The translations under genes were made by a program, and so were the position numbers. From a virus, in IMG/VR virus record IMGVR_UViG_3300037468_000259, positions 1-33,105 of that record: DNA of 33,105 nt; one strand, 5' to 3'. This document shows positions 8,634 through 30,019 of this stretch, in pieces. Numbering within the stretch: position 1 is the first letter of the stretch; each line of letters starts with the position of its first letter. The notes beneath the pieces are model-generated. The model did no database searches and was not told the origin of the DNA. It saw nothing but the letters and a program-made list of their open reading frames with translations.

Positions 8634-11267
8634 ATGCGACGCCTCCCCCTGTACCCGCACGTTCCAGCTCTCGCGGTTGAGACGACCGCCCCGCTGGCCG
8701 TGGACCCAAACTGCCGTAGGTGCAGACTCGGAGGCAAGAGCAAGGCCACCTGCCTTCCCGCTGATGGGGAGGCAGGTGGTCTGCTTGTCGTGACCGACGC
8801 ACCCGGCATGGAAGAGGAAGCCGCAGGGCGCCCGCTCGCAAGCAAGAGCGGCGTGTGGCTTCGACAGCAGATAGGCAAGCTCTGGGCCGGCCCTGTGGCC
8901 TACGACTTCGGCGTCCGGTGCCGACCGACGACCACCGCGACCGCAGACATCGCGGTCGACGACTGCCGCCCGTACCTCGCGCAGACGCTCGCGGAGGTGA
9001 AGCCGCGGCGCGTGGTCGCCTTCGGCAAGGTGGCGGTCGAGGCGGTGCTTGGGCGCTCGCTCTCACCGCTGGACGTCATGCGCGGCTACTCGTGGCTGAC
9101 CGCGCACACGAGCGTAGGTTCCCCGGTCCCGGTCTTCTACATGCCGTCGCCGGTCATGGCTCTCCGCAACCGGCTCATCCGGCAGTTCTGGTACGAGCCG
9201 CAGCTGAAAGCTGCGCTCTGCGACGCGCCTCCGATTCCTGTGGAGCAGTCGCTCCTCTCCGAGTGGGTGCGCGTGACGACGGTAGACGAGACCGACGAGG
9301 TACTCGCCCTGTGCACCGCCTCGGAGTTCACCAGCATCGACCTCGAGTGGGCAGGGCATCCGTTCAACGCCGACCATCGCATCGTGTCGATGTCGCTGAC
9401 ACCGCGGCCCGGCACGACCTCGTTCGTCTTCGGGGCGAGCGAGCTGCTCGAGAACAACGCCATCGTCTCGCGCCTCAAGGCATGGTGGACGAACCCCTCC
9501 GCGCGCAAGGTTGGCTCTAACCTCAAGGCGGACGTCATCGCCTTCCGCAGCCGGTACAAGGTGATGCTCGCGGGACAGGTGGGCGACACGCGCTTCCTGC
9601 GGCGACTGCTCGAGTCGGATGCGAGCGCGAAGCTCGAGACGATGGCCGAGCTCGTCGGCATGGGCGGTCACAAGGACGAGATGGACACCGCAGGGAACTC
9701 GGCGGTGGCGTTCGTCCGCAAGCAGTCGAAGACGCGCCCGCCTCTCGGTGTCCAAGCGGACGTCGTGGCGATGCACGGCTACACCGGCCTCCTGCACACG
9801 CACATCGAGAAGGTACTCAAGGGGGACAACCCGAAGACGTACCGCATGGCGTTCGTGCAGCCAGAACTCATGCAGCGGTACAACGCCCGCGACACGATGA
9901 CGACCGCGCTGCTCCACGAGGAGCTGCTGCGGCGGCTTGGCAGTGACGACCCCAACCTGACGCGGGTGTGGGAGTCGCTGGTACTGCCTGTAGCGTGGGC
10001 GCTCGGTTACGTCGAGTCGTGGGGGATGCCGGTCGACCGCGAGGCGCTGGCGAACTTCGGGGCGTACCTGCAAGCCGAGTTGGACGTCGTGGCGAAGCGC
10101 TTCGTGCCGTACGGGTACGACCCGACGAACCCGGACGCGTTCAACCCGGACAGCGCGGCGCACGTTGGCACGCTGCTGTTCAAGACGCTGGCGATTACCG
10201 CGACGCACTTCACGGACACAGGCAAGCCAGCGACGCACGCCGCTGCTCTCGAGGACTACGCCAAGCAGCACCCGGTCGCGCACGACCTCATGCGGTGGCG
10301 CAAGCTCCGCAAGCTCAAGGGCACCTACGCCGACGGGGAGGACGGCGAGGGCGGTCTGCTCACGCACGTTCGCGACGACGGGCGCATCCATCCGTCCATC
10401 AACCCGGACGGGACGCGCACAGGACGCGCCAGTTCTAGCGGGCCCAACCTCCAGAACATCCCTCGGGCCGACACGCCGGAAGGGAAGATGCTCCGAGACT
10501 GCTTCGTCGCGCCGAAGGGCTGGGTGTTCGTGGAGCTCGACCACTCCCAGCTCGAGCTTCGCATCGCGGCCGACCAGTCGGGCGACGAGAACATGCTCGC
10601 CATCTTCCACTCGGGCGAGGACTACCACCTGCGAACCGCGAAGCTGATCGCTCCGCAGGTGTGGCCCGGTGTGGACCCGGAGAGCATCACGAAGGACGGA
10701 ACCGAGCGCACCGCCGCCAAGAGCGTGAACTTCGGCGTGCTCTACGACGACTCGCCCTACGGACTGGCCTTCCGCATGGGGATGCCCGTGCAGCAAGCGG
10801 TGAAGGTGCGCGACGCCCTCTTCGGCAAGTTCAAGAAGCTCGGGCGATACATCGAGGAGCGCGTGCAAGAGACCTCCCGTTCCGGCACCGCGCGCACATG
10901 GTGGGCCGGCGGACCGGCTCGCCGACGCTGGCTGATGGCGGTGGCGGACGTAGACGAGCAGGCGCGCAAGACCTCTCGACGCTCATCGTGGAACACCCCG
11001 ATTCAAGGCACAGGGTCCGACTACCTCGCCGCTGGCATGGTCGAGGTCGTCCGCTGGATTCTCGAGGAGGACGTCCCGGCGCAGGTGTGCGTCCCGATTC
11101 ACGACGCCATTCTCGCCCTCGTTCGTGAGGACGTGCTCGAGGAGTACCTCTACGTCGTCCCGCGCCTCATGACGGCCCTCCCGACTCGCAGCGGAGTACC
11201 GCTGGTGGTGGACGCGAAGGTCGGCCGGTCGTGGGGGTCGATGGAAAAGCGAAAGCTGGTGCGTTGA
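8634..11267 (+). CDS. Family A DNA polymerase fused to a UDG-like N-terminal domain
   Basis: An 877-aa replicative polymerase in three parts. Residues about 25-185 match family 4 uracil-DNA glycosylase: iron-sulfur-type cysteines at 27, 30, 96 and 111, DAPG near 55-58 and the CRP...CRPYL segment. The usual HPS motif reads MPS (Met170), so glycosylase activity may be lost. Residues about 230-430 are a DEDDy 3'-5' exonuclease: Asp236/Glu238, NLKAD (Asp300) and YNARD (Tyr416, Asp420). Residues 450-877 are the polymerase: motif A LDHSQLELR (Asp636), motif B R692...K696...F700, motif C IHDA (Asp821) where HDE is usual. No 5' nuclease domain is present. UDG-like domains fused to phage family A polymerases are known in SPO1-type phages. 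Confidence 0.93.
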   Translation: MRRLPLYPHVPALAVETTAPLAVDPNCRRCRLGGKSKATCLPADGEAGGLLVVTDAPGMEEEAAGRPLASKSGVWLRQQIGKLWAGPVAYDFGVRCRPTTTATADIAVDDCRPYLAQTLAEVKPRRVVAFGKVAVEAVLGRSLSPLDVMRGYSWLTAHTSVGSPVPVFYMPSPVMALRNRLIRQFWYEPQLKAALCDAPPIPVEQSLLSEWVRVTTVDETDEVLALCTASEFTSIDLEWAGHPFNADHRIVSMSLTPRPGTTSFVFGASELLENNAIVSRLKAWWTNPSARKVGSNLKADVIAFRSRYKVMLAGQVGDTRFLRRLLESDASAKLETMAELVGMGGHKDEMDTAGNSAVAFVRKQSKTRPPLGVQADVVAMHGYTGLLHTHIEKVLKGDNPKTYRMAFVQPELMQRYNARDTMTTALLHEELLRRLGSDDPNLTRVWESLVLPVAWALGYVESWGMPVDREALANFGAYLQAELDVVAKRFVPYGYDPTNPDAFNPDSAAHVGTLLFKTLAITATHFTDTGKPATHAAALEDYAKQHPVAHDLMRWRKLRKLKGTYADGEDGEGGLLTHVRDDGRIHPSINPDGTRTGRASSSGPNLQNIPRADTPEGKMLRDCFVAPKGWVFVELDHSQLELRIAADQSGDENMLAIFHSGEDYHLRTAKLIAPQVWPGVDPESITKDGTERTAAKSVNFGVLYDDSPYGLAFRMGMPVQQAVKVRDALFGKFKKLGRYIEERVQETSRSGTARTWWAGGPARRRWLMAVADVDEQARKTSRRSSWNTPIQGTGSDYLAAGMVEVVRWILEEDVPAQVCVPIHDAILALVREDVLEEYLYVVPRLMTALPTRSGVPLVVDAKVGRSWGSMEKRKLVR

Positions 11268-15579: not shown

Positions 15580-16131
15580 ATGGAGCGAGCACAGGCTGGC
15601 GTAAAGGAACTGCTTGAAGGTCTGGGTTTCGACACTTCAAGCGAGGGGCTTCTGGACACGCCGAAGCGTGTAGCCAAGGCGTTCACCGAGCTGACCAGCG
15701 GTTACAAGATGGACCCCGCGGTTGTTCTCGGCGTCACGTTCGAGGCTCCCGCCAGCAAGGACATCGTGGTGCTGGCGGGTATTCCCTTCGTCAGCCTGTG
15801 CGAGCATCACCTGCTGCCCTTCACCGGGCACGCGAGCGTCGCGTACATACCGAAGGACCGCGTGGTCGGCCTGTCGAAGCTGGCGCGTGTCGTGGACGTC
15901 TACGCGAAGCGTCTCCAGCTTCAGGAGAAGCTGACCGCAGAGATCGCGGACGCCATCGCCACACACCTCGATGTCGCAGACGTAGCGGTTGCGGTCGAGG
16001 CGGTTCACTCCTGCATGGCGATCCGCGGAGTGCAGAAAGCGGGTGCGGTCATGCGAACGAACTCCCTGCGCGGCGCGTTCAAGACCAACTCGTCGGCACG
16101 CGCGGAAGTCCTGCGCCTGATGGAGCGCTGA
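15580..16131 (+). CDS. folE: GTP cyclohydrolase I
   Basis: A 183-aa type I enzyme converting GTP to 7,8-dihydroneopterin triphosphate, the first step of both folate and 7-deazaguanine synthesis. The zinc and active-site signature SLCEHHLLPF (Cys74, His76, His77) and the HSCMAIRG segment (His143, Cys145) are intact, as is the C-terminal FKTNSSAR-like stretch. AGGAG precedes ATG 15580, 9 bases after sbcC. With QueD, QueE and DpdA downstream, the purpose here is 7-deazaguanine supply for DNA modification. The stop shares a base with the next ATG. Confidence 0.95.
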   Translation: MERAQAGVKELLEGLGFDTSSEGLLDTPKRVAKAFTELTSGYKMDPAVVLGVTFEAPASKDIVVLAGIPFVSLCEHHLLPFTGHASVAYIPKDRVVGLSKLARVVDVYAKRLQLQEKLTAEIADAIATHLDVADVAVAVEAVHSCMAIRGVQKAGAVMRTNSLRGAFKTNSSARAEVLRLMER

Positions 16132-16493
16132 TGCGGAAGAAGAAGCAGGTCATCGCCACGCTCGAGGTGCCGGGCTTCCACCTCTGGGCCAACGCCCCAG
16201 CCATCGTGATGCACCTCAAGGTGCGTCACCGTCACCTGTTCCGCTTCATCGTCGCGATGGACGTCGAGGGCAGCGACCGCGAGGCGGAGTTCCACCTCCT
16301 CCGCGTTCGCATGGAGGGGTGCCTCCAAGACCTCTACGAGCGCGGCCTGCACGGCTTCGAGTTCGGTGGGCGGTCCTGCGAGATGCTGGCCGAGGAGCTG
16401 ATCGCAAAGCTGGCAACCGAGGACGGTATCGAGGCCTCGTGGTGCGAGGTCTGGGAAGACCGCGAGCACGGCGCTCGCGTGGAGGTCGCGTGA
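16131..16493 (+). CDS. Small QueD/PTPS-like (T-fold) protein
   Basis: A 120-aa protein coupled to folE by TGATG. The segment FHLWANAP...HRHLFRF (residues about 16-39) recalls the QueD zinc region (FxxxH...HGHxY), AEFHLLRVRME recalls the QueD IDFxxLK strand-helix, and CEMLAEELIAKL...CEVWEDREHGARV recalls the QueD TAENLA...ET end. The normal QueD Cys nucleophile region and the LDH motif are not evident, so it is unlikely to be a second CPH4 synthase. A role in converting or binding a 7-deazaguanine intermediate is plausible. It may be the decarboxylase proposed in related phages (DpdL), but I cannot verify that. Confidence 0.5.
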   Translation: MRKKKQVIATLEVPGFHLWANAPAIVMHLKVRHRHLFRFIVAMDVEGSDREAEFHLLRVRMEGCLQDLYERGLHGFEFGGRSCEMLAEELIAKLATEDGIEASWCEVWEDREHGARVEVA

Positions 16494-17602
16494 TCTACTA
16501 CCTGCCACTCGAACCGTACCCGGAGCGGTACACCGAGCTGCTCACGAACTGGACCATCACGCGCTTCAACGCTCGCGGCGTTCCGGTCACGGTCGTCCTT
16601 GGACAGCGCCTCCCCGACGAAGGTATCCGCGTGGGGCAGGTGCTCGACGCTGCCGGTCGCAGCCACTTCGCGCTCACGCAGGTCGCGGAACTGGTGAAGG
16701 CGCTGCCAGCGATGACCTGCGACGATGTCATCTACTTCGACGACATGTTCACGCCGGGATACGAGGCGCTGCCTTACATCCTCATGCAGCTCCCGGTGGT
16801 GAGGCGCCCGCGCATCTTCGCCCGCAACCACGCGCAGTCGGTGGACCCGGACGACTTCACGTTCCCGATGCGGGAGTGGATGCGCCACTTCGAGCAGGTC
16901 GTGTACCGCACGGCGACCGGCATCATCTGCGCCTCCACGGTCCACAAGGAACTGATGGAGGTGGCGATGCTCGACTCCTGCCCCATCCACGTTCTCGGGC
17001 TGCCGTACGACGAGAACGACGTGCGGCGACTCGCAGGTCCGTTGCCGGGATGGCATCAGCGCCCGCGACAGGTCGTCTACTCCTCCCGGCTCGACCGCGA
17101 GAAGCAGCCGCACTTCTTCATGGACATCGTGGACCGCCTCGCACCCAAGGGCTTCTCGTTCCACGTCTGCACTGGGTCGAAGGAGCCGCGTAGCAACGAC
17201 CCGTCGGCGGTCGAGCGGCTCCTCGCGATGGAGGCGAAGGGTCGCGTCACCATCCACCGGGCGACGACCAAGGCTCGGTACTACGAGGTCGTGAAGAACA
17301 GCCGCGTGCAGCTCAACACGGCGCGGCAGGACTTCGTGAGCTACACGGCCATCGAGGCCTCGTCGCTCGGCACCTACACGCTCGCTCCGGCGTTCCGTTC
17401 ATTCCCGGAGACGTTCGACAACAACGCCGACTTCCTCTACGTCCCGTGGTCGGTGCAGGAGGCGTGCGAGAAGCTGGAGCTTCTGGCGACCCTCGGCCCA
17501 CGTATGGCAGGCGACGACACGCACGAGTCGTTGGTGGGCAAGCTGAGCGCCTACCAGCACGCGGCCCTCGACCGCATCATCGACCTGCTGGTGGCTCCAT
17601 GA
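16490..17602 (+). CDS. GT-B (GT4-like) glycosyltransferase
   Basis: Starting at GTG 16490, which overlaps the preceding TGA, it has 370 aa. The C-terminal half shows a GT4-type nucleotide-sugar domain: VYSSRLDREKQPHFFMDIV (near 200-218), then YYEVVKNSRVQLNTA and YTAIEASSLGTYTLAP, where the Glu lies in the usual E-x7-E region. The N-terminal half looks like an acceptor Rossmann domain. No membrane segment is seen, so it should act in the cytoplasm. Lying inside the folE-dpdA-queD-queE operon with overlapping genes on both sides, it probably glycosylates the modified base or DNA; a protein or surface target cannot be excluded. Confidence 0.75.
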   Translation: MIYYLPLEPYPERYTELLTNWTITRFNARGVPVTVVLGQRLPDEGIRVGQVLDAAGRSHFALTQVAELVKALPAMTCDDVIYFDDMFTPGYEALPYILMQLPVVRRPRIFARNHAQSVDPDDFTFPMREWMRHFEQVVYRTATGIICASTVHKELMEVAMLDSCPIHVLGLPYDENDVRRLAGPLPGWHQRPRQVVYSSRLDREKQPHFFMDIVDRLAPKGFSFHVCTGSKEPRSNDPSAVERLLAMEAKGRVTIHRATTKARYYEVVKNSRVQLNTARQDFVSYTAIEASSLGTYTLAPAFRSFPETFDNNADFLYVPWSVQEACEKLELLATLGPRMAGDDTHESLVGKLSAYQHAALDRIIDLLVAP

Positions 17603-18102
17603 GGTTTCCCGTGTCCCCCGAAGCCTCCGTGCAGCCCCTCACCCATCCAGCCGGACTCGAAGACGAGCCGGTCTTCTACGGCGTCGAGTGCGAAGGCGCG
17701 CTGTCGGGAGAGCCGACCGCGTTCGTGCGCCGAGGTCTGTCGGACGAGGAGACGGTGGCGCTGGTCCGCCGCATCAAGTCCGACGGCATCACACAGGTCT
17801 TTCTCACCGAGACGTTCTTCGAGTGGGACTGGCTGGCGGTGATCCTGTTCCGCTGGCTCGCGGAGAACGCGCCGACGATGACCGTGACCATCGGGCGTCA
17901 CGCGAAGGACATGCCGGAGTTCGTGCTCCTGCCGTTCCGCGACAAGCTGAAGGTCATCGTTCGCTTCCTCGACTGCCCGTGGATGACCCAGCTTGGCTCG
18001 GACGACGAGATCTCCGTCGGCGTGCCGTACAACCTCACCACGTTCCGCGTGGGTGCTGGCGTGGAGACGCTCCCCCAAGAGTACGAGAGAGACACTCGAT
18101 GA
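17599..18102 (+). CDS. QueE-like protein lacking the radical-SAM cysteines (tentative)
   Basis: 167 aa, coupled by ATGA to the glycosyltransferase. The start YGVECEGALSGEPTAFVRRG resembles the QueE opening (xQGEGxxxGxPxxFVR), and then come helix and strand elements (DEETVALVRRIK, QVFLTET, MTVTIGRHAK) in QueE order. The [4Fe-4S] cysteine motif and the GGEP loop are missing; only Cys residues at about 30 and in FLDCPW remain. It may be a scaffold or binding protein derived from QueE, or an unrelated family with chance resemblance. Position two genes before dpdA ties it to DNA modification. Confidence 0.35.
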   Translation: MRFPVSPEASVQPLTHPAGLEDEPVFYGVECEGALSGEPTAFVRRGLSDEETVALVRRIKSDGITQVFLTETFFEWDWLAVILFRWLAENAPTMTVTIGRHAKDMPEFVLLPFRDKLKVIVRFLDCPWMTQLGSDDEISVGVPYNLTTFRVGAGVETLPQEYERDTR

Positions 18103-18974
18103 TCGTCAGCCCAGACAGGAACGTGCGCTCCATCGCCATCGTCGGCGCGGAGTCCACCGGCAAGTCCACGTTGGCGCTGATGCTCACCGGGCGGCTCCGC
18201 ACGCACGGCGTGCAGGCTGTGATGGTCGCGGAGCCGGGCAACACCTTGCCCTTCCCGCCGTCCATGCTCGACACCCATTGGCCTGCGTGGCTCTACATGG
18301 TCACGCACAAGATGGCGCTCGAGTCACAGACCGCCCTGCGACCGAACGTCGGCTTCATGGTGTCCGACCGCTCGGTCATCGACCACATCGCCTACGCCGA
18401 GGTGCGCGGAGCCTACGGTCTCTGCGCTCACACGCTCAACCAGCTCGCGTGGACTTGGATGGCGCACTACGACGCCGTCTACTTCTTGCCCACCGAAGGC
18501 ACGGAGTACGTCGAGGACGGCTTCAGGATGCCGGCCAAGGACAACGACTTCCGGGCTGATGTGAACGCGTGGTTCGAGGCACGCCTCGACTCCATCGCGA
18601 AGTACGTCCCGGAGACGCACCGAGTCACCGGCTCGTATCGTGAGCGCGGGGAGTGGATCTACCACCACGTCCTCCACACGTTCCTCGGCAAGAGCCGACC
18701 CTTGCGTGCCTACGAGCAGGTGCGCGACTGGCTGCGGCAGCGGGGGTGGCGCGTCCTCGAGGTTCGCCCTCAAGGGTCGAACAGCGTCACGCGCTTCCAT
18801 CCGTCCAGCGACCACGACGACATCGACGCCATCGTGGTCGTGGAGGGTGACGCGAACTACGCCATCCTCGTCCGACAGGACATCGAAGCTCACCGCACCC
18901 AGCTCGAGAACATCGTGCAGGCCGACCTCGACCTGCTCGTCACCCCTGCCGGGCTGGAGGCGCACGAAGCATGA
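18099..18974 (+). CDS. NadR-like P-loop ATPase/kinase (AAA_28 type)
   Basis: 291 aa. Walker A GAESTGKS (16-23) sits in SIAIVGAESTGKSTLALML, close to the kinase domain of NadR and related deoxynucleoside or nucleotide kinases. A conserved MVAEPG segment and MVSDRSVIDHIAY (an Asp-Arg lid element) follow. The C-terminal 90 residues are a separate mixed domain ending in long helices. It could phosphorylate a nucleoside, base derivative or sugar. ATGA overlaps join it to both neighbours, including dpdA, so a role in the modification pathway is likely; the substrate is unknown. Confidence 0.7.
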   Translation: MIVSPDRNVRSIAIVGAESTGKSTLALMLTGRLRTHGVQAVMVAEPGNTLPFPPSMLDTHWPAWLYMVTHKMALESQTALRPNVGFMVSDRSVIDHIAYAEVRGAYGLCAHTLNQLAWTWMAHYDAVYFLPTEGTEYVEDGFRMPAKDNDFRADVNAWFEARLDSIAKYVPETHRVTGSYRERGEWIYHHVLHTFLGKSRPLRAYEQVRDWLRQRGWRVLEVRPQGSNSVTRFHPSSDHDDIDAIVVVEGDANYAILVRQDIEAHRTQLENIVQADLDLLVTPAGLEAHEA

Positions 18975-19924
18975 TCATCTACCTGTCGGCCATCGAGACT
19001 GGGTTCGAGCACCTGTCCACAGTCATTCGGAACGAGGTGCCGCACGTCCTCACCTCGTTCCTGTACGCCGGGTGGAAGGGGACCGCGAGCCGCACGCCCT
19101 TGTGGACCAAGGCGATGCAGCAGGCGAAGATCCGCCTCATCGACTCGGGCGCTCACAGCTTCCGTACTGCCCACTTCGACTCCGGGGCAGTCAGCGGAGT
19201 CGCTGACTTGGACGAGTTCGCCCACGCCTACATCAAGTGGCTGCTGAACGTGAAGCGGCAGCGCCTCGCCGACTGGTGGGTCGAGCTTGATATTGGTGCG
19301 ATGTCCGGGCAGCCGTGGGTGAACAAGACCCGCAAGAAGTTCGTGGACTCCGGGCTGGGCGGTGGACTCATACAGGTCTGGCACAGCAGCGAGCACGACT
19401 GGGACTACTGGTTGTGGCTCCTGCGCGAGTCCACGCGCCCCGGACGCTCGCGCTACGTCGCCATCGAAGGCCACGGACAAGGACGCGACCGTCACGACTA
19501 CACGAAGTTCCTCCACGAAGCCTACAAGCGCGGGGTCCGCGTTCACGGCTTCAAGCTCACGGGCGCGCAGGACCTCCAGAAGTGGCCGTTCTACTCCGTG
19601 GACTCCACTTCATGGCTTGTGACGATGCACGCAGGTGGGCTACCTGCCATCCACGTTACAGGCGGCGCGACACAGGTGCGGAACGGCATCAACTCCGGTG
19701 GCATGAGCGGGCGACGGACGAAGTGGTACGGCGGCTTCCCGCGCTACCAGCCGAAGAAGTGGCGACAGGACATCCTGAACGTGTCCTGCAAGATGTGGCT
19801 CCGCGAAGAGGAGAAGATCGACGCCTTGTGGAAGCTCCGCGGCGTAGACTGGGAACAAGCAATCATCAACCCCGAGGTACGAGATGACGACGGCACAGAC
19901 CACCCACTCGCCCGGCTCGGATAA
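18971..19924 (+). CDS. dpdA: DNA 7-deazaguanine transglycosylase DpdA
   Basis: 317 aa, a phage relative of tRNA-guanine transglycosylase that swaps guanine in DNA for a 7-deazaguanine. Characteristic segments are LIDSGAHSF (Asp58), ELDIG (Asp107), VHGFKLTG (191-198) and YSVDSTSWL (Asp211), which fit the two catalytic aspartates and substrate pocket of the TIM-barrel family. The C-terminal zinc site of tRNA-TGT is not visible, as expected for phage DpdA. It lies in one operon with folE, queD and queE. Reported phage DpdA acts after replication and protects DNA from restriction. The subfamily (DpdA1, 2 or 3) cannot be set by eye. Confidence 0.85.
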   Translation: MIIYLSAIETGFEHLSTVIRNEVPHVLTSFLYAGWKGTASRTPLWTKAMQQAKIRLIDSGAHSFRTAHFDSGAVSGVADLDEFAHAYIKWLLNVKRQRLADWWVELDIGAMSGQPWVNKTRKKFVDSGLGGGLIQVWHSSEHDWDYWLWLLRESTRPGRSRYVAIEGHGQGRDRHDYTKFLHEAYKRGVRVHGFKLTGAQDLQKWPFYSVDSTSWLVTMHAGGLPAIHVTGGATQVRNGINSGGMSGRRTKWYGGFPRYQPKKWRQDILNVSCKMWLREEEKIDALWKLRGVDWEQAIINPEVRDDDGTDHPLARLG

Positions 19925-20735
19925 CGCCGGGCTGACCGCGTTCGCTGCACAGCTCTCGAAGTCCGGCGTCCCTGTCGCCGGGTTGAAGTTCGTGGAGGTG
20001 GACGTTTTCAAAATCCGCCCCAACCCGTTCAACCCGAACAAGCAGGCGCCGGAGATCTTCGAGCGTGAGAAGCGCTCCATCAAGCGCCACGGGTTCATCG
20101 ACCCCATCACCGTCCGCGAGGCAGCGGACGGGGTGATCGAGATCGTGGACGGAGAGCACCGCTGGCGCGCCGCTCGCGAGTTGACCGCCTCGGGTGATGC
20201 CGCGCTGGGCAAGCTGCCTGCCGTTCACCTCGGACGCCTGAGCGACGACGACGCGAAGCGGCTGGTGATCCTGTTCAACGAGCTTCGTGGCGACCCGGAC
20301 CCTGCCAAGCTCGCGCTGGTGCTCAAGGACCTCACGGACCTCGCCACCATCGAAGACCTGTCCCTCGACCTGCCCATGACCGTCAGCGACATCGAGTCGC
20401 TGGTGAAGGCCACGGACTTCGACTGGGGAACGCTGGAGGGGCAGGAGTCCCGCGTCCACGGGTCGAAGAACAAGGACACGGGCCTCGTGAAGTTCGCGCT
20501 CGGCCCCGTGAAGCAGGAGATGCCGCGGCAGCTTGCGGACGCCTTCCTCGCGGAGTGGGAGCAGTCTGTCGCGGTCGTCGGAACGAAGAACCCCGAGATC
20601 ATCCTGCGGCACTTCATCTCGCGCCTCCAGCGTGTCCCGGCGGGAGACGTCGCCCCAGAGACGCTGCCCGAGAAGAAGGAGCCGGAGAAGCTCGGCCGCA
20701 AGGGCAAGAAGGCCAAGAAGGAGGTCGCGTCGTGA
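19884..20735 (+). CDS. ParB-like nuclease-domain protein, copy 1
   Basis: 283 aa with a ParB/Srx-type domain at about 35-120: IRPNPFNPNKQ, IKRHGFIDPITV and the signature IVDGEHRWRAAREL. A helical region follows, and the tail is Lys/Glu-rich (EKKEPEKLGRKGKKAKKE). ATG 19884 lies inside the end of dpdA (41-base overlap) with GAGGTACGAG upstream, so expression is tied to DpdA. Such domains bind or cut DNA, or bind nucleotides such as CTP in ParB. It may guide DpdA to DNA or act on unmodified DNA; both are inference. Confidence 0.8.
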   Translation: MTTAQTTHSPGSDNAGLTAFAAQLSKSGVPVAGLKFVEVDVFKIRPNPFNPNKQAPEIFEREKRSIKRHGFIDPITVREAADGVIEIVDGEHRWRAARELTASGDAALGKLPAVHLGRLSDDDAKRLVILFNELRGDPDPAKLALVLKDLTDLATIEDLSLDLPMTVSDIESLVKATDFDWGTLEGQESRVHGSKNKDTGLVKFALGPVKQEMPRQLADAFLAEWEQSVAVVGTKNPEIILRHFISRLQRVPAGDVAPETLPEKKEPEKLGRKGKKAKKEVAS

Positions 20736-21154
20736 GCATCGCAACCTGCACCCGCCGTCTCGAGTTTGACGCTGGGCATCGCCTCAAGAAGCACGAGTCC
20801 AAGTGCCGAAACGTCCACGGCCACCGCTACGTCGTGGAGATCACCTGCGCGGCTGACGCGCTGGACGGCGTGGGGCGCGTCATCGACTTCGCCGCCGTGA
20901 AGCACATCGTCGGCAAGTGGATTGACGACAAGCTCGACCACGGCTTCATCGTGCAGGAGGAGGACTCACTCCTCTCCGCGCTGTACGCCGACGGGACCAA
21001 GATCCACATCGTGCCGTTCAGCCCGACCGCCGAGAACCTCGTCGTCTACATCGCCGACGCCGCTCAGCGGCTGCTCACGTCGCTGGGTATCAAGGTCGCG
21101 CACGTGCGGCTGTTCGAGACCCCGAACTGCTGGGCGGACTGGAGCGCGTCGTGA
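20732..21154 (+). CDS. queD: 6-carboxy-5,6,7,8-tetrahydropterin synthase
   Basis: 140 aa from GTG 20732, overlapping the ParB-like stop. It converts dihydroneopterin triphosphate to CPH4. The zinc ligands His16 (DAGHRL), His29 and His31 (VHGHRY) and the nucleophile Cys25 (SKCRN) are present, as are VIDFAAVK, the LDHGF motif and the closing SPTAENLVVYI...ETPNCWADW. It is the normal size for QueD. It takes FolE product and feeds QueE, whose GTG overlaps its stop codon. Confidence 0.93.
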   Translation: MSIATCTRRLEFDAGHRLKKHESKCRNVHGHRYVVEITCAADALDGVGRVIDFAAVKHIVGKWIDDKLDHGFIVQEEDSLLSALYADGTKIHIVPFSPTAENLVVYIADAAQRLLTSLGIKVAHVRLFETPNCWADWSAS

Positions 21155-21909
21155 AGACCTACCGCATCAAAGAGATCTTCGACACGTTGCAGGGCGAGGG
21201 CAGCCGCGCCGGGCAGCGGTCGGTGTTCGTCCGCTTCACCGGCTGCAACCTCTGGAACGGTCTCGCCTCGGGCCGCTCCAAGGGCAAGGCGGAGTGCGCC
21301 CTCTGGTGCGACTCCGACTTCGCAGACGGGGAGAAGCTGACCGCCGGAGAGCTGGCCGAACGCATGGACGCCCTGTGGCCTCTCTACGCTGGAGCACCGC
21401 CCCGGTGGGTGGTCATCACGGGCGGTGAGCCGCTGCTTCAGGTCGACCGCCACCTGCTCGAGACGCTGAAGTCGGCAGGCTGGCTCCTCGCCCTCGAGAC
21501 GAACGGCACGCTCAACCCGATGGACGAGCATGGGTTCGTGGCCGACCTGTTCGACCACATCACCCTGTCACCCAAGCTCGCCCACGGGGCCGACCGGCTC
21601 ACCGCGCCGCTGATGTTGCGTCGCTGCACGGACCTCAAGGTGGTCCTCCCCGGTGCGCTCGAAGGTGGCTGGTCGAACACCGGACTCGTGGACTTGTTCC
21701 ACCAGACGACGCACCTGTACGCCTACGTTCAGCCGCAAGACCCGGTCGAGGAACAAGCCGTGGGGCTGACGCACCTCACGGGAGGCATCCAAGGTCCGGT
21801 GGCCTCCCGACTCTACGAGAAGCGCCTCAAAGGCTGCATCGACTTCGTGATGCAGCACCCAGAGTGGCAGCTTTCTCTCCAGACTCACAAGCTGATCGGA
21901 GTGCGGTGA
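21151..21909 (+). CDS. queE: 7-carboxy-7-deazaguanine synthase (radical SAM)
   Basis: 252 aa from GTG 21151. It rearranges CPH4 to 7-carboxy-7-deazaguanine. DTLQGEGSRAGQRSVFVRFTG (the substrate loop), the cluster cysteines Cys32, Cys49 and Cys53, ALETNGT and VITGGEPLL are all recognisable. The cluster motif reads CX16CX3C; CX14CX2C or CX3CX2C is more common, so this may be a subfamily variant. No QueC follows in the window, so CDG may be the end product or pass to another enzyme. The stop shares a base with the next ATG. Confidence 0.92.
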   Translation: MKTYRIKEIFDTLQGEGSRAGQRSVFVRFTGCNLWNGLASGRSKGKAECALWCDSDFADGEKLTAGELAERMDALWPLYAGAPPRWVVITGGEPLLQVDRHLLETLKSAGWLLALETNGTLNPMDEHGFVADLFDHITLSPKLAHGADRLTAPLMLRRCTDLKVVLPGALEGGWSNTGLVDLFHQTTHLYAYVQPQDPVEEQAVGLTHLTGGIQGPVASRLYEKRLKGCIDFVMQHPEWQLSLQTHKLIGVR

Positions 21910-22658
21910 TGGCAAAGGCAAAGAGTCCCGAGGGGCAGCCGCACATCGAGTACGTCCCGCTCGACGAAGTGAAGAAGTGGGACCGCAACCCGCGCACGCA
22001 CGACGACGCCGCCATCGAGCGGAGCATCAAGCGGTACGGCTTCGTGAACCCGCTGATCCTCGACGAGCGGTCAGGCAAGCTCGTCGCCGGTCACGGGCGC
22101 ACCGCCGCCCTCGAGTCCATGCAGGCGGCAGGTGAGGCACCTCCGGCGCGCATCGAGGTGCGCTCTGGCGGCAAGTGGTTCGTCCCGGTCATCCGTGGCA
22201 TCAGCTTCAACAGCACAGCCGAGGCCGAAGCGTACCTCGTCGCGGACAACCGTCTGTCCGAGCTGGGTGGGTGGGACAGCGACACCCTGCGCGACATCAT
22301 CCGCGACCTCAACGACGACGGGCTTGAGCTGGACGCCCTCGGGTGGTCGCAGGCGCAGCTCGACCGGCTGCTCTCGCCGGAGCCGGAGAAGAAGACGCGC
22401 ACCAAGGCCGCAGGTGAAGGCAGCGGCTTGGGAGACAGCCTCGCTGGTGTTGCGAGCGCCCGGCTGCTGCCCATCTACCTGTCGGCCGAGGAGTACCAGC
22501 CGACGGTGGACAGGATGCGGGCGATCATGGACGCCCACCGGCTCACCGACTACGCGGCGCTGCTCACGTTCCTCCTCGACCAGAACACCGCGTTCACTCC
22601 GACGAACAAGCGGGCTGAACAGAGCGAGGGTGCTGACGTATTCTCCGCGCCCGACTGA
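21909..22658 (+). CDS. ParB-like nuclease-domain protein, copy 2
   Basis: 249 aa, coupled to queE by TGATG. The ParB-like domain fills residues about 10-120: VKKWDRNPRTH, IKRYGFVNPLIL and the signature KLVAGHGRTAALESM. This form is common beside phage DNA-modification genes. The C-terminal half holds a helical region and a Lys-rich linker. It shares the IKRxGFxxP element with the copy upstream of queD but differs in the signature (GHGR versus GEHR). It closes the 7-deazaguanine operon. Confidence 0.82.
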   Translation: MAKAKSPEGQPHIEYVPLDEVKKWDRNPRTHDDAAIERSIKRYGFVNPLILDERSGKLVAGHGRTAALESMQAAGEAPPARIEVRSGGKWFVPVIRGISFNSTAEAEAYLVADNRLSELGGWDSDTLRDIIRDLNDDGLELDALGWSQAQLDRLLSPEPEKKTRTKAAGEGSGLGDSLAGVASARLLPIYLSAEEYQPTVDRMRAIMDAHRLTDYAALLTFLLDQNTAFTPTNKRAEQSEGADVFSAPD

Positions 22659-24992: not shown

Positions 24993-25080
24993 GGAGCGGT
25001 AGACCCGTAGAGGGCGGGGCCAGACTGTAAATCTGGTGTGCCAAGGCACCCCGAAGACGCGACTCCTTCCCGCTCCACCA
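24993..25080 (+). tRNA. tRNA-Tyr (anticodon GUA) with unusual elbow
   Basis: The 88 bases fold as a class II tRNA. The acceptor GGAGCGG (24993-24999) pairs perfectly with CCGCTCC (25070-25076), followed by A73 and encoded CCA. The anticodon stem CCAGA/TCTGG (25020-25024, 25032-25036) has loop CTGTAAA with GTA at 25027-25029. The long variable arm (GTGCC AA GGCAC) suits bacterial tRNA-Tyr. The D arm is reduced to CCC-GTAGA-GGG with no GG pair. The T arm reads GAAGA-CGCGACT-CCTTC, with an A.C closing pair and no TTC. It may be a working but odd tRNA, a decaying one, or a tRNA mimic. Confidence 0.8.
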
Positions 25081-25097
25081 GAACAGGCACTACGCGG

Positions 25098-25124
25098 AGG
25101 CACTGGCGACTCGCTGGTGCCTTT
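25098..25124 (+). terminator. Intrinsic terminator after the tRNA
   Basis: AGGCACTGGCG (25098-25108) pairs with CGCTGGTGCCT (25112-25122) over 11 positions (two G.T) around ACT, then TT. It lies 18 bases past the CCA end, fitting transcription termination after the tRNA. The U-tract is short. The 37 bases beyond, up to the next gene, show nothing further. Confidence 0.6.
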
Positions 25125-25161
25125 CGCGTTGAACGCCCACCGCACTTCACACAACCCGGAC

Positions 25162-25659
25162 ATGAACATCTTCGTACTCGACCAAGACCCGATCCTTGCC
25201 GCTGAAGCCCAGTGCGACCAGCACGTCGTCAAGATGACCGTCGAAACAGCGCAGCTCCTGTGCGCCGCGTTCGACCCCGGCGTCGCGCCGTACCGGCGGA
25301 CGCACGCCAACCACCCCTGCTCGCTCTGGACGCGGCAGACCGCTGGCAACTTCCTGTGGCTCGTCGAGCACGGCATGGCGCTTGCCGACGAGTACACCTA
25401 CCGCTTCAACGGCAAGACGCACGCCTCCCGCGAGGTCATCCTGTGGTGCCTCAACCACTTCGACCTCGCGCTCTTTGACCACTCGGACGAGGTAACGCCG
25501 TTCGCCCAAGCGATGCCCGACGAGTTCCGACACATCGACCCGGTGGCGGCCTACCGTGCCTACTACGCCGGGTCCAAGGTGCGTTTCGCGACATGGACCA
25601 AAGGACGACCTGCCCCAACGTGGTGGCCTGCGCCGCCGAAGGAGAACGTGCATGAGTGA
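25162..25659 (+). CDS. Conserved phage protein of unknown function (MNIFxLD family), 165 aa
   Basis: The opening MNIFVLDQDPILAAEAQCD, then HVVKMTVETAQLLC, THANHPCSLW and ADEYTYRFNGKTH, matches a family I remember as widespread in phages, sometimes labelled pyrimidine-dimer glycosylase-like without proof. Conserved His, Asp and Lys residues near 20-25 (DQHVVKM) suggest an enzyme. ATG 25162 has no good Shine-Dalgarno, so the start could be weakly used after the tRNA terminator. The gene overlaps the next by 8 bases. Confidence 0.75.
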   Translation: MNIFVLDQDPILAAEAQCDQHVVKMTVETAQLLCAAFDPGVAPYRRTHANHPCSLWTRQTAGNFLWLVEHGMALADEYTYRFNGKTHASREVILWCLNHFDLALFDHSDEVTPFAQAMPDEFRHIDPVAAYRAYYAGSKVRFATWTKGRPAPTWWPAPPKENVHE

Positions 25660-29693: not shown

Positions 29694-30019
29694 CCCCCAA
29701 GCGGCAGGAGCTTCTCGACTACTGGATGGACCACGGGGGCTTTCCGGACGAGGTGTCGCCCCCGCTGTTCGGGGACGCGGACGGCGACCCGCTGGACGAG
29801 GCCGTCATCGGGATGACCGAGCTGGCACCAGCAGGCAGCCGCGGCTGGCGTCCGGCGTGGGTCTACAACGGTCGCAAGCTGCGGGCGGTGCTCCTCGAGA
29901 CAGGCACGGCGGACGACGAGGTGGACGAGCACATCTCCTACAACATCGAAGGGTCCATGACCGCAGACGGTCCAGTCATCGTCTGGCCCCTCATGAGTGA
30001 CGAATCGGCCCCGGGATGA
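29690..30019 (+). CDS. Hypothetical protein between terminase genes, 109 aa
   Basis: GTG 29690 overlaps the TerS stop, and the stop overlaps TerL ATG by 4 bases. It is acidic with many Asp/Glu, with no recognised motif. Coupling to both terminase genes suggests a packaging accessory, which is inference. Confidence 0.6.
   Translation: MTPKRQELLDYWMDHGGFPDEVSPPLFGDADGDPLDEAVIGMTELAPAGSRGWRPAWVYNGRKLRAVLLETGTADDEVDEHISYNIEGSMTADGPVIVWPLMSDESAPG

Follow-up and report, generated by a model that had tools for sequence, protein, structure and literature searches.

The ten-gene operon

The stretch of DNA analysed here (the window) is a fragment of 33,105 bases, without end repeats, from virus record IMGVR_UViG_3300037468_000259. 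Positions 15580-22658 hold ten plus-strand genes that include all three needed to supply the base for DpdA-dependent 7-deazaguanine DNA modification (FolE, QueD and QueE), together with a DpdA of tRNA-guanine transglycosylase (TGT) fold. Each gene overlaps the next by 1-4 nt, or by 41 nt for dpdA and parB1, and we therefore treat the ten as a single operon rather than a chance assembly. The genes, with the evidence for each, are as follows.

15580-16131, plus strand: FolE, GTP cyclohydrolase I (PF01227, E 7e-68; TIGR00063 above cut-off)
16131-16493, plus strand: x120, a QueD-fold protein of 120 amino acids (phrog_17812, E 7.5e-18)
16490-17602, plus strand: glycosyltransferase of family 4 (GT4) type with N-terminal LEPYPERYT signature (Glyco_trans_1_4, E 2.5e-5, just under cut-off)
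17599-18102, plus strand: x167, with N-terminal GxExEGxLS motif (39% identical in loci L075 and L076)
18099-18974, plus strand: AAA_28 (NadR-like) P-loop kinase with conserved C-terminal domain (PF13521, E 1.7e-12)
18971-19924, plus strand: predicted DpdA-like DNA-guanine transglycosylase (phrog_887, E 1.8e-23; TGT fold, Z 16.6)
19884-20735, plus strand: ParB-like protein, parB1 (PF02195, E 6e-12)
20732-21154, plus strand: QueD, 6-carboxytetrahydropterin synthase, CxxxHGH intact (PF01242, E 2e-33; phrog_2389, E 2e-39)
21151-21909, plus strand: QueE, synthase of 7-carboxy-7-deazaguanine (CDG), with three cysteines (TIGR04508, E 6e-48, below the equivalog cut-off)
21909-22658, plus strand: second ParB-like protein (phrog_620, E 2e-35)

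An earlier reading made from the letters alone (the sequence-only reading) had placed such an operon in this interval, with FolE, QueD and QueE complete and DpdA present. The interval, the gene coordinates and the strand all hold, and Pfam, NCBIfam and PHROGs matches confirm the enzymes (DpdA by phrog_887 and by fold). Left unmentioned in that reading were four genes between folE and dpdA: x120, the glycosyltransferase, x167 and the AAA_28 kinase.

The same reading saw no QueC in the 33 kb, and this too is correct: a profile search of the window, a genome fragment, returned no match to PF06508, and a six-frame motif search found neither an SGGxDS-type PP-loop nor C-x8-CxxCxxC. The QueC or Gat-QueC that marks the preQ0/G+ subtype is thus missing from the window, and relatives also lack QueC.

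x120 is a relative of QueD

No function is assigned in PHROGs to phrog_17812, the family of x120. Searched by sequence against the PDB, x120 gave only a marginal match to 6-pyruvoyltetrahydropterin synthase (PTPS; E 0.038), and none with a larger alignment, which is why a fold search was used. The AlphaFold2 model built from 34 sequences (pLDDT 93) finds E. coli QueD as its best PDB match by VIA-align (Z 13.3, rmsd 2.3, 111 aligned); QueD also ranks first in Foldseek (E 1e-5), and profile comparison of x120 with QueD gives a probability of 90.5% (E 1.4e-6).

The residues invariant in the 34 members are H17, L29, H33, H35, R50, E53, S82-C83-E84 and E109-D110. The protein has the T-fold of PTPS and QueD, and H17, H33 and H35 match the zinc-ligand histidines of QueD, making a predicted zinc site. 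QueD, however, has an invariant C25 and D69-H70, where x120 has a leucine (L29, invariant, four positions ahead of H33) and conserves no Asp-His pair (the profile alignment of the two shifts the Cys/Leu region by two residues). Since the catalytic cysteine is replaced by leucine and the Asp-His pair is missing, we read x120, from these residues, as a relative of QueD that probably does not perform the QueD reaction itself. A normal QueD is encoded downstream in the same operon.

Relatives of x120 are found in Cellulophaga phages phi13:1 and phiST, Acidovorax phage ACP17, Synechococcus phage BUCT-ZZ01, Rhizobium phage RHph_I1_18, Xanthomonas phage X1, Vibrio phages D479 and Bakedbeans, and Faecalibacterium phage Roos, where they adjoin folE, queD, queE or dpdA genes; at least three types of DpdA are represented. 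A scan of genome contigs gave one informative locus, on a contig from a delta-proteobacterial metagenome-assembled genome (L073), with QueE, x120, a glycosyltransferase, FolE and QueD. Eight loci encode a second, SPASM-domain radical SAM protein close to x120 (e.g., L120:2200-3078).

x120 and QueC exclude one another

A full QueC is encoded by none of the eight x120-bearing named phages, compared with 13 of 14 QueE-bearing phages that lack x120 (Fisher p 2.8e-5); the sole QueC-less phage among the latter is Mycobacterium phage Bipper. Matches to PF06508 in D479 (69 of 210 positions, ~100 kb away), G032 and G035 are weak and cover the C-terminal third only, while X1, phiFN37 and G087 give matches that fall short of the threshold; none was counted as QueC. 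Among 39 further viral contigs collected by x120 there is no full-length QueC match, although two have short C-terminal ones. That QueC was lost by chance through a truncated contig is made less likely by the eight named genomes.

To avoid ascertainment through x120, we gathered 80 viral loci by similarity to DpdA. FolE, QueD or QueE is present in 34, of which 31 have both x120 and the glycosyltransferase and three (L125, L129 and L133) have neither. QueC was predicted in these three before the result of a whole-contig search was known, and the search found it in exactly these three (in L129 split over a 493-residue frame) and in none of the 31 x120 contigs. Removal of duplicates leaves 26 x120 loci against three (p 2.7e-4); the sequences share ancestry, and this and the preceding p-value are indicative only and overstate independence.

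The DpdA-gathered set shows three modes of supply: loci with QueC, loci with x120 and the glycosyltransferase, and 42 loci without synthesis genes, x120 or glycosyltransferase. In most of the 42 (L107-L158) a YhhQ-like Vut_1 transporter directly follows dpdA. These transporters are relatives of the Vut_1 protein of L104 (PF02592, E 1e-48), and the DpdA-plus-ParB loci that carry them are a salvage version of the system.

The transglycosylase

The window's DpdA has no Pfam or NCBIfam match and is recognised only by PHROGs (phrog_887); when DpdA and x167 were used as single query sequences, no or almost no close relatives came up. We modelled its structure from 29 relatives (pLDDT 80). The first 30 VIA-align matches of this model are tRNA-guanine transglycosylases and a Cap10-CdnD complex (Z 16.6-15.0), and TIM barrels of other kinds score Z 13.4 or lower; plain Foldseek returned weak generic TIM barrels only, and the DpdA profile had no TGT match in the PDB. 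Residues D58, H62, E105, D107, H138, H192 and D211 are invariant in the 29 relatives. On the model, then, the protein is of TGT fold and a predicted DNA-guanine transglycosylase. The DpdA families were not joined by hhalign, so the evidence that they share a TGT fold comes from motifs, supplemented in the case of the window protein by structure. A ParB-like gene adjoins DpdA in most DpdA loci and is a regular partner of the window's type.

A glycosyltransferase module linked to x120

The product of the gene following x120 matches GT4 structures by profile (E 1.5e-4) and has a group-1 C-terminal domain with R..EK and E-x7-E, scoring just below Pfam cut-offs. Its LEPYxERYT start and D/E-x7-E motif are conserved, and it is 40% identical to a BUCT-ZZ01 protein. 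With duplicates removed, 64 of 81 x120 loci carry this glycosyltransferase, always on the same strand as x120, directly adjacent to it in 41, and across two DpdA families; of the 17 loci without it, 12 are phiST-like with another TGT-like gene. When whole records were searched, ACP17, BUCT-ZZ01 and X1 proved to have the enzyme, whereas it is missing from all 14 x120-negative QueE phages, all 3 contigs with QueC and all 8 DpdA-only contigs. The place of the glycosyltransferase is taken in phiST-like x120 loci by a small AAA_18 kinase (L002:7308-7805) and a TGT-like protein of 259 amino acids; ten loci have a sugar-nucleotide epimerase-like gene close to x120 (e.g., L077:2238-3287).

The order x120-glycosyltransferase-x167-kinase-DpdA recurs in L075 and L076, contigs from which QueC is absent, along with folE, queE and SbcD/SbcC-like genes. 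The kinase is 50% identical there, and a related kinase occurs in eight x120 loci. By profile, x167 matches a family found in L020, L021 and L085 (probability 93%, E 4e-7); its similarity to ACPa (probability 7%) is suggestive only. The cysteines of the window's QueE have the unusual spacing Cx16CxxxC; CxxxC is also seen in L113, L075 and L076, and most others that were read have CxxC.

A proposed QueC-independent route to modified DNA

We propose that the operon belongs to a QueC-independent branch of phage 7-deazaguanine DNA modification, an explanation to which, taken whole, we give a probability of about 0.68. By established chemistry, FolE, QueD and QueE, of which orthologues are encoded, would take GTP to CDG. 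The protein x120 would then use its QueD-like zinc site to act on CDG, or on a base made from CDG, and so replace QueC, a role that we consider probable. The simplest chemistry would be removal of the 7-carboxylate to give 7-deazaguanine, for which the odds are a little short of even; if x120 is a decarboxylase, it is a candidate for the DpdL activity reportedly described by Cui et al. in 2023. DpdA, judged by its fold and conserved residues, would swap guanine in the phage DNA for the base that x120 delivers. The GT4 enzyme, encoded near x120 and DpdA, may decorate that base or an intermediate, with the kinase and x167 perhaps helping in this step; linkage is what points to all three. Glycosylation of the deazaguanine can be suggested only tentatively, and the full scheme, in which x120 converts CDG without QueC, DpdA inserts the product and the GT4 enzyme adds a sugar, more tentatively still. 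The likely purpose would be to shield phage DNA from host nucleases, as with other 7-deazaguanines (PMC6884629).

The sequence-only reading had the product as CDG or something made directly from it. Because QueC is missing across the whole class of relatives, and not just from the window, a product made from CDG is the best reading; a pathway that stops at CDG finds no support. Were CDG itself inserted, giving 7-carboxy-7-deazaguanine (dCDG) in DNA, FolE, QueD, QueE and a DpdA that accepts CDG would suffice, and CDG has been proposed for Bipper, which has neither QueC nor x120 (Hutinet 2019, PMC6884629). It would, however, reduce x120 to an accessory that catalyses nothing itself (a carrier, a partner of QueD or a regulator), whereas the three zinc-type histidines, the SCE motif and the ED residues, invariant in 34 members, look enzyme-like, and x120 is found where QueC is missing whichever of at least three DpdA types is present. 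We think it improbable. Even less probable is that the phage draws on host preQ0 or host QueC, with FolE, QueD and QueE merely boosting supply. Many bacteria encode QueC, and DpdA-only phages exist, many with a YhhQ-like transporter; yet the presence of QueC tracks the absence of x120 almost perfectly, and a host supply leaves x120 and the glycosyltransferase unexplained. Reliance on host QueC, which the sequence-only reading had also allowed, is not supported: x120 stands exactly where QueC is missing, and the GT4 enzyme is absent from QueC-type phages. Host preQ0 as the sole explanation was rejected as the most likely one, since x120 tracks the absence of QueC.

A stronger contender, though still short of an even chance, is that the glycosyltransferase and the kinase have a different task, for example modifying the host surface or a pyrimidine, and merely travel with the operon. 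GT4 enzymes are common in phages, and phiST-like x120 loci manage without one. Such a task would have to accommodate the close same-strand linkage of the gene to x120 across two DpdA families and its absence from QueC-type and DpdA-only genomes; moreover, the scan of window genes turned up none that would hydroxymethylate pyrimidines.

Several points weigh against the QueC-independent route or parts of it. Three x120 loci, those of Roos (L004), L104 and L120, have no FolE, QueD or QueE nearby and all have a Vut_1 transporter instead, an arrangement suggesting that x120 can use a precursor salvaged or made by the host; for such loci, decarboxylation of CDG is a less comfortable fit. Because Bipper has neither QueC nor x120, the latter is not obligatory in every QueC-less phage. 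Since phiST-like x120 loci have no glycosyltransferase, that enzyme is outside the core step, and 7-deazaguanine offers a GT4 enzyme no obvious O- or N-acceptor at C7. The shared ancestry that inflates the p-values belongs here too.

The absence of QueC is in itself not new, because Bipper has already been described as QueC-less (Hutinet 2019, PMC6884629). The exclusion between x120 and QueC and the linked glycosyltransferase module appear to be new: we found no description of either in the literature searched, which left most subscription papers outside its scope. A literature search for glycosylated 7-deazaguanine in DNA likewise found none. We know of no report of such a base. The exclusion supplies a rule for which phages bypass QueC, one that can be checked in sequenced isolates, and names x120 as the protein of interest. 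Should the inserted base be the substrate of the glycosyltransferase, deazaguanines and sugars, the two large classes of armour on phage DNA, would be joined in an added modification; restriction and glycosyl-sensing defences might detect it or might miss it.

Other features of the window

The window has a replication set of tailed-phage type: a DnaB-like helicase, a Toprim primase, a family A DNA polymerase, a single-stranded DNA-binding protein, SbcD and SbcC-like proteins. Fused to the polymerase (8634-11267) is an N-terminal domain of the uracil-DNA glycosylase superfamily. Positions 25036-25659 encode a protein resembling pyrimidine-dimer glycosylases, whose PF03013 score barely exceeds the cut-off. 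Near 30016 lies the gene for a terminase large subunit, identified by its matches to annotated terminases of phages. The closest matches of window proteins in named phages are all below 60% identity.

Comparison with known systems

Phages of the preQ0 type, such as Rosebush and CAjan (PMC6884629), resemble the window in keeping FolE, QueD, QueE and DpdA in one gene group; they differ in having QueC, and x120 and the glycosyltransferase are absent from the QueC-type genomes examined. Bipper (KU728633) is closer, with FolE, QueD, QueE, a ParB-like protein, a related DpdA and no QueC, but it has neither x120 nor glycosyltransferase. It was described as missing only QueC and as possibly CDG-modified by Hutinet 2019 (PMC6884629), who also noted a phage group in which the synthesis genes occur without any DpdA being recognised. 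Between dpdA and queD, Bipper has a gene of 141 amino acids (L055:2047-2472) without Pfam match, a candidate alternative substitute for QueC.

The loci of ACP17 and BUCT-ZZ01 share with the window FolE, QueD, QueE, x120, a glycosyltransferase of the same family, a TGT-like gene (phrog_10773) and the lack of QueC; unlike it, they have a DpdA of another family and no kinase of the window type. Phages with dCDG or 7-deazaguanine (dDG) in their DNA, which Cui and colleagues are said to have described along with the CDG decarboxylase DpdL, would resemble the proposed system in carrying a QueC-free product of CDG. To our knowledge, that scheme includes no glycosyltransferase. That a nucleic acid can contain a 7-deazaguanine nucleoside bearing a sugar is already known from the mannosyl- and galactosyl-queuosine of tRNA (PMC8654956, PMC12518689), which differ from what we propose in being made on RNA, by animal enzymes and on a different acceptor.

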